Below, one piece after another: positions 9,142-62,307 of a stretch of 64,000 bases of DNA; position 1 is the first letter of the stretch; the number at the start of each line of letters is the position of its first letter. The stretch comes from Aradus depressus (taxonomy: Eukaryota > Arthropoda > Insecta > Hemiptera > Aradidae): positions 99,844,115 through 99,908,114 of the forward strand of contig OY759214.1 of the NCBI GenBank assembly GCA_963662175.1, in the 5' to 3' direction. A program made the position numbers and the translations under genes. The notes below the pieces were generated by a model that saw only the letters and a list, made by a program, of their open reading frames with translations, had not been told where the DNA came from and ran no database searches.

Positions 9142-9259
9142 GAAAAAAAACCCATAAGGATGTTAATATGAAGATGGCTGATGTAGTGAGAAGTGATTAT
9201 TTCACAGGTTGTCAAATAAGATATGGTCTGACCTTTCACAGATTTTTATTTATATTAAC

Positions 9260-9295
9260 TAGCCGGCTTTCAAGGTTTCCCTCTTCATCAGGCAG
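9260..9295 (-). ncRNA. Hammerhead ribozyme-like motif (type I), left arm
   Basis: On the minus strand, CTGATGA (plus 9285-9291) is followed by stem II GAGG-GAAA-CCTT, which pairs with one G-U wobble around a GNRA loop. Next come GAAA (9268-9271), a minimal stem III of GCCGGC closed by A-U, and the TA that would hold the cleavage site. Stem I pairs for only about two bases, so self-cleavage is doubtful. Confidence 0.6.
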
Positions 9296-9433
9296 TTTAC
9301 AAAAGTAACCATCCTTAAGCAACAAAAAACAGGTTCTGTTGTTAACACTTATAAAGGCAACACAAATTTAAAATATATATAACTACATTAAATTATAAAA
9401 CATAACAAAAAATGGTGATGGTTTCTTTTGTAG

Positions 9434-9470
9434 ACTGCCTGATGATGAGGGCAACCTCGAAAGCCGACTA
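9434..9470 (+). ncRNA. Hammerhead ribozyme-like motif (type I), right arm
   Basis: CTGATGA lies at 9439-9445. Stem II is a perfect GAGG-GCAA-CCTC with a GNRA tetraloop (9447-9458), then GAAA (9459-9462), a short GCCGAC stem III closed by A62-T69, and A at the position before cleavage. Flanking bases do not form a convincing stem I. The core is intact; activity is uncertain. Confidence 0.6.
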
Positions 9471-9551
9471 ACTAATACAAATACAAATCTGTGAAAGGTC
9501 AGACTATATCTTATTTGACAACCTGTCCCATAAGGATTATCACCTATTGAA

Positions 9552-19440: not shown

Positions 19441-19703
19441 AAAGAGTGTAGATATCAGAATACATTTCTGCGATTTGTGCCGGTATGATGGAAAGATAAT
19501 AAAATAAATAAAAACACAACTTGTTTAACTATTCTATTGTCTACTTCCATGAAGGGTACAGGTTTCGGTTTTCGCTATCGTTTCAAACTTTGTACTGACG
19601 ATGGCATAAACCGAAACCGGCACACTTTATGTATATTTGTTTGTGCAATTAGACAATATACAAATTAAACAAGTTCTTTGTGTTTTATTTATTTTTAAAG
19701 AGT
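19441..19703. mobile_element. Family C inverted-repeat element with hammerhead-like cores
   Basis: The left arm (about 19500-19586) and right arm (about 19602-19696) are diverged reverse complements: aaaacacaacttgtttaa versus ttaaacaagttctttgtgttt. The cores face outward. The right one (plus) is CTGACGA-TGGCATAAACC-GAAA at 19600-19621; the left one is decayed. A 7-bp direct repeat, aaagagt, at 19441-19447 and 19697-19703 could be the TSD, leaving a one-sided extension (19448-19496) as in the 9-kb and 62-kb elements. The layout is the same but the sequence is unrelated. Confidence 0.5.
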
Positions 19704-57784: not shown

Positions 57785-58160
57785 CTATGTATATCTCGCA
57801 CATTGGGACCTGATGATGGGACGTAAGAACGTTCCGAAACATCGTCGGGATAAAGACACTTCCGAAGTTTTTTGAAAAATAGTTCTCTTAATTTTTATTA
57901 AATTGAAAAATGTGAACTTATTATAAATATATCTATGTATTAATTTTTTTTTATATACCTACTCGTATTTTTAAGTATTTATTTGTTCAGTTTTTATTAA
58001 TTTCATTTTACTTTTTTTAATACTTTTGTTATTAGGTACTACTAGGTGTGTTAGACTCAAGTAGTTATAAATCTAATTTATAAGCTATCTTAATGTATAA
58101 ATTCTTTTGACGTATCCTATTACCATGTATTGGTTTAACGGAACATAAATATATATCCCA
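57785..58160 (+). mobile_element. Family E retroposon, full copy
   Basis: Starts 'tatgtatatctcgcacattg', contains the best family E hammerhead-like core (57810-57846), and continues through 'gataaagacacttccgaagt', the AT-rich body, and 'cgtatcctattaccatgtat' to 'tggtttaacggaacataaat'. The terminal (TTA)n has been lost. It directly abuts the Penelope-like GIY-YIG remnant on the opposite strand. Confidence 0.65.
57810..57846 (+). ncRNA. Hammerhead ribozyme-like core in family E
   Basis: CTGATGA (57810-57816), a 7-bp stem II GGGACGT-AAGA-ACGTTCC with one G-T wobble (57818-57835), GAAA (57836-57839), a minimal stem III closed by A-T and C-G around ATC, and C at the cleavage position (57846). All core residues are present. 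Stem I pairing between 'attgggac' and 'gggataaag' is not evident, so activity is doubtful. Confidence 0.6.
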
Positions 58161-58310: not shown

Positions 58311-59196
58311 TGTTTTAGTTTGGCCATTGTTGAGATGATTGAAGTGTATTATTTGTTCTGAAACCTACCCCAAAGTCCTGTTTTAGTTTTAGTTTGGCCA
58401 TTGTTGAGATGATTGAAGTGTATTATTTGTTCTGAAACCTACCCCAAAGTCCTGTTTTAGTTTTAGTTTGGCCATTGTTGAGATGATTGAAGTGTATTAT
58501 TTGTTCTGAAACCTACCCCAAAGTCCTGTTTTAGTTTTAGTTTGGCCATTGTTGAGATGTTTGAAGTGTATTATTTGTTCTGAAACCTACCCCAAAGTCC
58601 TGTTTTAGTTTTAGTTTGGCCATTGTTGAGATGTTTGAAGTGTATTATTTGTTCTGAAACCTACCCCAAAGTCCTGTTTTAGTTTTAGTTTGGCCATTGT
58701 TGAGATGATTGAAGTGTATTATTTGTTCTGAAACCTACCCCAAAGTCCTGTTTTAGTTTTAGTTTGGCCATTGTTGAGATGTTTGAAGTGTATTATTTGT
58801 TCTGAAACCTACCCCAAAGTCCTGTTTTAGTTTTAGTTTGGCCATTGTTGAGATGATTGAAGTGTATTATTTGTTCTGAAACCTACCCCAAAGTCCTGTT
58901 TTAGTTTTAGTTTGGCCATTGTTGAGATGTTTGAAGTGTATTATTTGTTCTGAAACCTACCCCAAAGTCCTGTTTTAGTTTTAGTTTGGCCATTGTTGAG
59001 ATGTTTGAAGTGTATTATTTGTTCTGAAACCTACCCCAAAGTCCTGTTTTAGTTTTAGTTTGGCCATTGTTGAGATGTTTGAAGTGTATTATTTGTTCTG
59101 AAACCTACCCCAAAGTCCTGTTTTAGTTTTAGTTTGGCCATTGTTGAGATGTTTGAAGTGTATTATTTGTTCTGAAACCTACCCCAAAGTCCTGTT
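58311..59196. repeat. 74-bp tandem array, 12 units, derived from Penelope coding sequence
   Basis: 'tttggccatt' recurs every 74 bp from 58319 to 59133 without indels. Units differ almost only at one position, gagatgAtt versus gagatgTtt, in the order A A A T T A T A T T T T. Read on the minus strand each unit contains VGFRTNNTLQSSQQWPN, which resembles the 'xxFRTNNxLxxxL' segment just upstream of the GIY-YIG domain in Penelope-like elements. The array is thus an expansion of a piece of the neighbouring pseudogene. Period 74 destroys any continuous frame. Confidence 0.95.
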
Positions 59197-59284
59197 TTTT
59201 ATATTATATATATTATCAATATATATTGCCTATCTGTTCTGTGTGAAAAAGGAGAAAGTATGGATTGAAAACTGGTTGAACTTC
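59197..59284. other. Short AT-rich spacer
   Basis: Nothing recognised. Confidence 0.3.
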
Positions 59285-61891: not shown

Positions 61892-62046
61892 TAACATGAT
61901 ACGTCATAAGAATGTATACATTATGATAGTGTATAAATTAGATACTAAACAGATATCAACTCTTAAAGTCTGACACACATGGATTATAATTAACAATACT
62001 ACTAAATAGAAATAAAAGACGTTGTCTTCCCACTGTTTTATTTTAT

Positions 62047-62088
62047 ACCAGAACCGGTTTTCGACGCAACAGCGTCATCATCAGCGGT
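62047..62088 (-). ncRNA. Hammerhead ribozyme motif, left arm
   Basis: On the minus strand: stem I ACCG pairing with TGGT (one G-T), CTGATGA (plus 62078-62084), stem II GACGC-TGTT-GCGTC, GAAA, stem III of A-A around CCGG paired with T-T, then C before the predicted cleavage at plus 62050/62051. All invariant core residues are present. It differs from the right arm by one base in stem I. Confidence 0.78.
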
Positions 62089-62176
62089 TCATCCCACCCA
62101 CACAGCACAGCGGTTGGAAGATAACTGGCCAATTCGCCAGTTATGTTCCAACCGCTGTGCTGTGTGGGTGGGATGA

Positions 62177-62218
62177 ACCACTGATGATGACGCTGTTGCG
62201 TCGAAAACCGGTTCTGGT
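62177..62218 (+). ncRNA. Hammerhead ribozyme motif, right arm, all three stems
   Basis: Stem I ACCA (62177-62180) pairs perfectly with TGGT (62215-62218). CTGATGA occupies 62181-62187, stem II GACGC-TGTT-GCGTC 62189-62202, GAAA 62203-62206. Stem III is only two A-T pairs around CCGG (62206-62213). C62214 is the residue before predicted cleavage. From memory of the family, minimal stem III is typical of Penelope-associated hammerheads and tends to need dimerisation; I cannot test that here. Confidence 0.82.
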
Positions 62219-62307
62219 ATAAAATAAAACAGTGGGAATACAACGTCTTTTATTTCTATTAGAAATCTCGTTCCACAACATCTTACTATCACATATGAAT
62301 ACTACTA

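Follow-up and report, generated by a model that had tools for sequence, protein, structure and literature searches.

Structure of a 293-bp palindrome and its flanks

How does a short inverted repeat with a hammerhead-like motif in each arm come to lie between two identical direct repeats, and what was copied to make it? These questions are raised by the 293-bp unit at 62005-62297 of a 64,000-nt stretch of the Aradus depressus genome (contig OY759214.1, positions 99,844,115 to 99,908,114, hereafter the window), which an earlier note had described as a mobile, non-coding palindrome with a one-sided extension and an affinity to Penelope-like elements (PLEs). This description is upheld by our analysis: the arms are 97% complementary and gap-free with four mismatched positions, the extension is a 37-bp tail, the unit holds no coding sequence, the kinship with PLEs is right, and the 10-bp AATACTACTA repeats represent a target-site duplication (TSD; Table 1). 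Folded as a single strand the unit gave -231.8 kcal/mol (z = -31.9), compared with a mean of -66.5 for shuffled sequences, none of which was as good (0/200). It looks like a recent Penelope-type insertion, consisting of two back-to-back copies of a short spliced leader RNA.

Table 1. Positions of features in the window; RT, reverse transcription.
Feature	Position	Strand	Remarks
Left TSD AATACTACTA	61995..62004		10 bp, direct repeat
Right TSD AATACTACTA	62298..62307		10 bp, direct repeat
Extents of the complementary arms	62005-62132 / 62133-62260	inverted	from self-comparison
Left arm, tail-less PLE leader copied in antisense	62005..62125	-	
Head-to-head joint TGGCCAATTCGCCA	62126..62139		from joint comparison, 40 copies
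Right arm, spliced PLE leader in sense orientation	62140..62260	+	
Junction where intron-bearing copies have GTAAGT...ATAG, window unit without intron	62172..62173	+	mirror position 62092/62093
Hammerhead motif of the sense arm	62177..62218	+	read by hand; predicted cleavage 62214^62215
Mirror hammerhead motif of the left arm	62047..62088	-	mismatch 62085/62180 turns one stem I pair into a G-U wobble
One-sided tail, 37 bp	62261..62297	+	would span the gap between the two putative RT start sites
Second inverted PLE-derived insertion, other family	9162..9526		hammerhead-like arms facing outward, left-hand tail
TSD CCCATAAGGAT of the 9162-9526 insertion	9151-9161 / 9527-9537		11 bp, read by eye

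Ends, centres and truncations of genomic copies

Copy number is given here in search candidates only, which amounted to 1,818 with the whole palindrome and 1,532 with the right arm plus tail as the query. The best 40 of the 1,818 candidates (sample 1) were 94-100% identical to the query and 283-306 bp long, and the expectation that genomic copies share the ends 62005 and 62297 was borne out, with 33/40 aligning over positions 1-293 and the remaining 7 falling at most 2 bases short. All 40 were flanked by TSD-like repeats (at least 8 nt with at most one mismatch, compared with 129/7,791 when flanks were shuffled), and exact matches of 8-14 nt were present in 30/40. The base preceding the left end was a T in 34 of these 40 copies, which may be copied from the first A of the tail and so gives no clean evidence of target preference, and at the other primer end there was a T in 29/40 and a C in 6/40; the flanks are AT-rich, in a genome that is itself AT-rich. 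A further copy within the 264 kb around the window (L063) has a left arm that ends inside stem II and a TSD of 9-10 bp. Exact pattern scans of viral and other-genome contig collections, the source organism not being among them, gave no match.

The centres of the palindromes were diverse, with 28 different strings between GATAAC (or AATAAC) and GTTAT among the best 40 of 1,818 copies. TGGCCA formed the centre of 11/40, and a few centres one base off TGGCCA could be later mutations. The joint of the window unit was found in none of the other copies among the 40 compared, and several joint fillers repeat GTTATCTTCC. Several left-arm joints have an additional C that is absent from the source DNA; this C may reflect copying of a cap, but it is inseparable from the joint itself and such copying is not claimed here.

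The best 40 of the 1,532 right arm plus tail candidates (sample 2) comprised 33 new places at 32 loci and 7 previously examined ones. An inverted partner was present at 34/40, namely in 30 spliced palindromes, in L082 and L098, and at the two L106 places, and none was found within about 400 nt for L099 and L105; L087 is a 5'-truncated single-arm insertion with a 9-bp repeat, lying beside another element, and the remaining places, without assigned partner status, are L091, L093 and L100. In the 30 spliced palindromes both arms fell no more than 8 nt short of the full 5' end in 16 (15 if L101, with a left arm short by 6 nt, is counted as left-truncated), the right arm alone was truncated in 8, the left arm alone in 5 (or 6), and both arms in 1. 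With a looser test that had no shuffle control, a TSD was detected in 30/31 palindromes of sample 2, the exception being L096, and the left arm was tail-less and ended at leader position 124-132 in 30/31, with that of L081 ending at position 79. The earlier proposal that the unit moved as a whole is contradicted by these copies, as centre and arm lengths were set anew in each and the template was spliced.

A spliced template and its parent element

The intron GTAAGT...ATAG (93 bp in L098) sits between GGGTGG and ATGAACC, and among the best 40 of 1,532 it was kept whole or in part at 8 places (L082, L087, L091, L093, L098, L100 and both L106 places, with L082 and L091 retaining the 3' part alone) and was absent at 32. 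As this is a GT-AG intron lost on the sense strand, the template was a sense, spliced RNA, and an antisense template is ruled out by the splicing. A mobile DNA palindrome, either a foldback or a MITE-type DNA transposon with a palindromic centre decaying after insertion, would account for the long inverted repeats, the TSDs and the variable centres, but is hardly credible, and was rejected on account of the intron absence at 32/40 places: a splice signature of this kind, with the intron present in some copies and precisely missing in others, argues strongly against it, as do the one-sided tail, the truncation of single arms and the GIY-YIG parent described below. For the intronless palindromes, an intronless source transcribed anew could in principle be an alternative.

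Judged from its sequence, an apparently autonomous endonuclease-bearing (EN(+)) PLE shares leader and tail with the unit in this genome, which leaves little room for the distinct inverted double-ribozyme family put forward in the earlier note. In L109 the leader, intron, hammerhead and tail are followed by an unbroken open frame (378 aa in the stretch fetched), which includes the tail. Since this frame runs past the tail, copies that finish at the tail end stop within the element, which points to an internal RT start, located 111 nt from the AUG. A 205-aa open frame of L106 has GIY-YIG features, in the form of a partial domain of 17 bits that is below the PF01541 cut-off of 22.6; over 154 aa this EN piece shares 44% identity with a piece from L068 which passes PF01541 (27.9 bits, cut-off 22.6), and a PDB sequence search with the EN piece gave no match at E<=1. 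L069 was rejected as parent, as it is without such a motif in the stretch read, and L106 was rejected as a TSD-less insertion, as L109 shows that the sequence past the right tail of L106 is the parent open frame.

The EN-side 350 bp of L106 gave 394 candidates, of which the best 40 scored 98-100% identical, some of them in tandem at 2,969-bp spacing, with L109 coming from one such tandem. Neighbours within 6 kb, counted by eye, were divergent in 8 cases, on the same strand in 4 and convergent in none in that search (best 40 of 394), and divergent in 13, on the same strand in 5 and convergent in none in a second genome search (best 150 of 1,852). Several features of EN(+) PLEs were found together here, namely a parent ORF with GIY-YIG, an optional tail of 30-40 bp (37 bp here), a variable short TSD, and a tandem or head-to-head arrangement. 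Five hits make up one array of the parent EN region (G000:C1:87026257-87040535): three share a strand, two are on the opposite strand in head-to-head orientation, and the spacing within each strand is 2,969 bp.

The same product from a longer RNA and from other families

L098/L108 is a 1,068-bp palindrome with intron-bearing arms, the same left end and right tail as the short units, and a 12-bp TSD. The layout recurs in two further families of the 264 kb around the window, and for the insertion at 9162-9526 the arm plus tail is an 88% match to the coding-side locus L068, of the same PLE family. A short inverted unit of a third family was seen by eye at about 5,500-5,850 of L065, with the centre ATGAAGTTCAT, a tail of about 40 bp and GTAATATTAAC on both sides. 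The window also contains an inverted pair at 19498-19695, which is 71% complementary over 52 nt and has a CTGACGATGG...CCGAAACC motif; no clear TSD was seen for this pair, and it is perhaps an old PLE insertion.

The hammerhead motif

The unit had been credited with two complete hammerheads, which stands for the cores and for stems I and II, all located in the arms, and fails for stem III, which is loopless, with Rfam being silent as well. Read by hand, the sense-arm motif is ACCA / CUGAUGA / U / GACGC-UGUU-GCGUC / GAA / AACCGGUU / C17 / UGGU, in which ACCA/UGGU forms stem I and GACGC/GCGUC stem II, and the core CUGANGA...GAA...UH is present with one additional nucleotide, the U after A9; the CTGATGA cores are at 62181(+) and 62084(-), each with a downstream GAA. 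The position of stem III is taken by the self-complementary AACCGGUU, which lacks a loop; a helix III would therefore require two RNA molecules. PLE hammerheads are reported as likewise without a proper helix III in the accessible part of PMC6155905, and a helix III between two RNAs is described for them there and in excerpts of PMC6466107 and PMC7761336. The Rfam hammerhead models, which the earlier note had expected to score, listed none for the window at gathering scores, none within 0.6 kb on either side of 62 kb at E<=1 and none at E<=10 for 62165-62235. A miRNA gene was rejected, with the Rfam miRNA hits near 62 kb all under gathering scores.

Stem I pairs summed over six families amounted to 18, compared with a mean of 5.8 for a null with shuffled 5' flanks, in which 18 was reached in 5/5,000, and 13 rows, some of them close kin, gave 38 pairs versus 15.2 in shuffles, with 1/2,000 as high. 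The best cut position was picked alike in data and null, and the rows were collected by hand, the weak ones being A257041 (1 pair) and L073, L068 and 42693 (2 pairs each). Left out were 19595 (U16.1 changed), L071/L072, 9291/9439 (of the family of L068), 19255, 50996, and the motifs at -34875 and 86457 of the 264-kb pattern scan. A simpler and weaker control gave at least 3 pairs in 5/6 families, and also in 4/30 mispaired combinations. The stem I pairing retained in these six families favours a minimal hammerhead of the PLE kind. A scan for CTGANGATG...CGAAA over the 264 kb that surround the window gave 13 occurrences, three of these in the family of the window unit, compared with none in the reversed sequence.

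The extra U belongs to an AUG at A9 that overlaps the hammerhead core, and in the window copy a UAA follows after 11 codons. The motif would belong to the RNA, and the version preserved in the palindromic DNA is probably no more than an inert imprint, because in a transcript of the whole unit the fold would pair it with the other arm. In one of the 31 palindromes of sample 2, L081, the left arm starts precisely at C17, the predicted cleavage site, and not at the usual start, a suggestive hint that the hammerhead may be used in insertion. Further hammerhead-like CTGANGA motifs, of other PLE-type families, are present in the window at 57810(+), 42693(-), 19255(-) and 59309(+). Also in the window, at 58312-59198, is a 74-bp tandem array of twelve copies with 99% matches.

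Proposed insertion by priming on both target strands

It is very likely that the unit is a single insertion by an autonomous endonuclease-bearing PLE, for which both nicked strands primed on the spliced leader RNA and the resulting cDNAs were joined head-to-head. The leader RNA, as the loss of its intron indicates, was spliced before it was copied, and the PLE protein would nick both target strands about 12 bp apart, which is consistent with the TSDs observed. Each 3' end would then prime RT within the RNA and not at the RNA 3' end, and from the observed ends of the copies the one priming site would be the tail end, 111 nt from the AUG, and the other 37 nt upstream. Each cDNA would extend toward the RNA 5' end near GCCAGTTATC, where transcription presumably starts, or would halt early. 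Finally, the two cDNA ends would be fused head-to-head via microhomology or end joining, often with filler, as seen in the joints, with host end joining as the putative activity. Such a fusion of two cDNAs would produce a palindrome that is absent from the template. At the sequence level, the copies display a spliced template, two start sites, a TSD, head-to-head joints with filler, and independent truncation.

A different route to the second arm is snap-back self-priming, in which the first-strand cDNA folds at its 3' end and copies itself, as proposed for rotifer PLEs in the accessible part of PMC3846280. This would explain why the palindromes are head-to-head and why private variants are common to both arms (6 types in 5 copies, and a one-base G deletion in 18 copies, in both arms every time; best 40 of 1,818); mosaics between arms were not found in any of the 40, so the two arms usually come from one source. 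Moreover, at the joints of L076, L085, L089 and L101 the right cDNA end is folded back over a short stretch (AACTGGCCAGTT), which shows that limited snap-back occurs. However, a copied arm should carry the complement of the tail, whereas the left arm is tail-less in 30/31 palindromes, and fold-back of a longer tail-less cDNA cannot yield the truncated tail-bearing arms seen in 8/30. This tail asymmetry, together with the truncated tail-bearing arms, disfavours snap-back as the main route, and we regard it as unlikely. A version with an antisense template, as discussed for self-priming in excerpts of the rotifer PLE work (PMC3846280), conflicts with the removal of the sense GT-AG intron. Variants confined to a single arm numbered 13 in left and 15 in right arms, three of the latter being an alignment artefact in L025. 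An identical change at hammerhead G12, in the right arm only, is present in L019 and L021, which may mean that the two arms can derive from different RNAs.

The constant ends of the many short copies, 283-306 bp long, and the intronless majority in sample 2, are also what could be expected from a self-contained, non-autonomous palindromic retroelement, SINE-like or retrozyme-like, which is driven by a PLE and transcribed from its own copies. Its centres are mostly unshared, though, and its arms are truncated independently, while leader and tail are shared with a PLE locus and other nearby PLE families yield the same product, all of which makes such an element quite improbable. A retrozyme proper was rejected as the arms are inverted and not tandem; no second same-strand copy was found in the fetched flanks, which mostly covered 300-400 nt upstream and 60-300 nt downstream.

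Extending the two-strand priming of a spliced leader RNA beyond the window unit, we consider it somewhat more probable than its opposite that PLEs prime a separate cDNA on each nicked strand, with starts 37 nt apart on the RNA, that host end joining fuses the two, and that hammerhead-cleaved ends serve as an alternative start (L081); the palindrome would then arise de novo at each insertion, and the genome would hold many natural products of this process.

Comparison with other systems

The accessible part of PMC3846280 describes Pen2a and other EN(+) PLEs of the rotifer Adineta vaga with inverted pLTRs and a one-sided tail (31 bp there), TSDs of 8-10 bp, and head-to-head junctions with palindromes, all of which resemble the units described here. 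The solo pLTRs mentioned there are those without a TSD, and the rotifer copies described in that part are coding or gene-capturing, whereas the A. depressus copies are leader-only, derived from a spliced template, with copy-specific joints and independently truncated arms.

For Poseidon PAc of Anolis (PMC11167929), the internal RT start lies 111-118 nt into the ORF, compared with 111 nt from the AUG here, and the tail lies between two start sites, as would be the case here. The ORF of PAc starts at hammerhead stem II, comparable to the AUG at A9 in our copies. Purified PAc protein extends both DNA strands in vitro (PMC11167929). That work was in vitro and has no short natural palindromes in its main text, whereas natural palindromes are described here, and its start sites are alike on both strands, unlike the combination of tail-less left arms and tail-bearing right arms found here. 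The same paper calls the later insertion steps 'yet to be validated experimentally'.

The small PLE hammerheads of Lunse, Weinberg and Breaker, as presented in excerpts of PMC6466107 and PMC7761336, are minimal type I motifs with a palindrome replacing the stem III loop, as in our unit. They cleave as dimers from a tandem arrangement, whereas here the partner arm is inverted, which prevents a hammerhead dimer from arising inside a single transcript of the unit. Metazoan non-LTR retrozymes, in the accessible part of PMC7229834, are likewise small and non-coding with a type I hammerhead and TSDs, but consist of tandem repeats expressed as circular RNA, in contrast to the inverted arms and spliced leader seen here.

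Implications for Penelope-like elements

In kind the unit is known, as a PLE, while for template, start sites and joints the copies tell more than the literature searched; leader-only PLE palindromes whose joints are specific to each copy did not turn up in the open-licence papers covered. PLE insertion is poorly understood, and sister copies within one genome let the insertion be read. A young family with many short, near-identical insertions reveals the template, both start sites and the joints at base resolution, and the copies favour two-strand priming and speak against self-priming on an antisense template. They also indicate that small palindromic repeats which resemble MITEs or foldback elements can be the products of retroelements.
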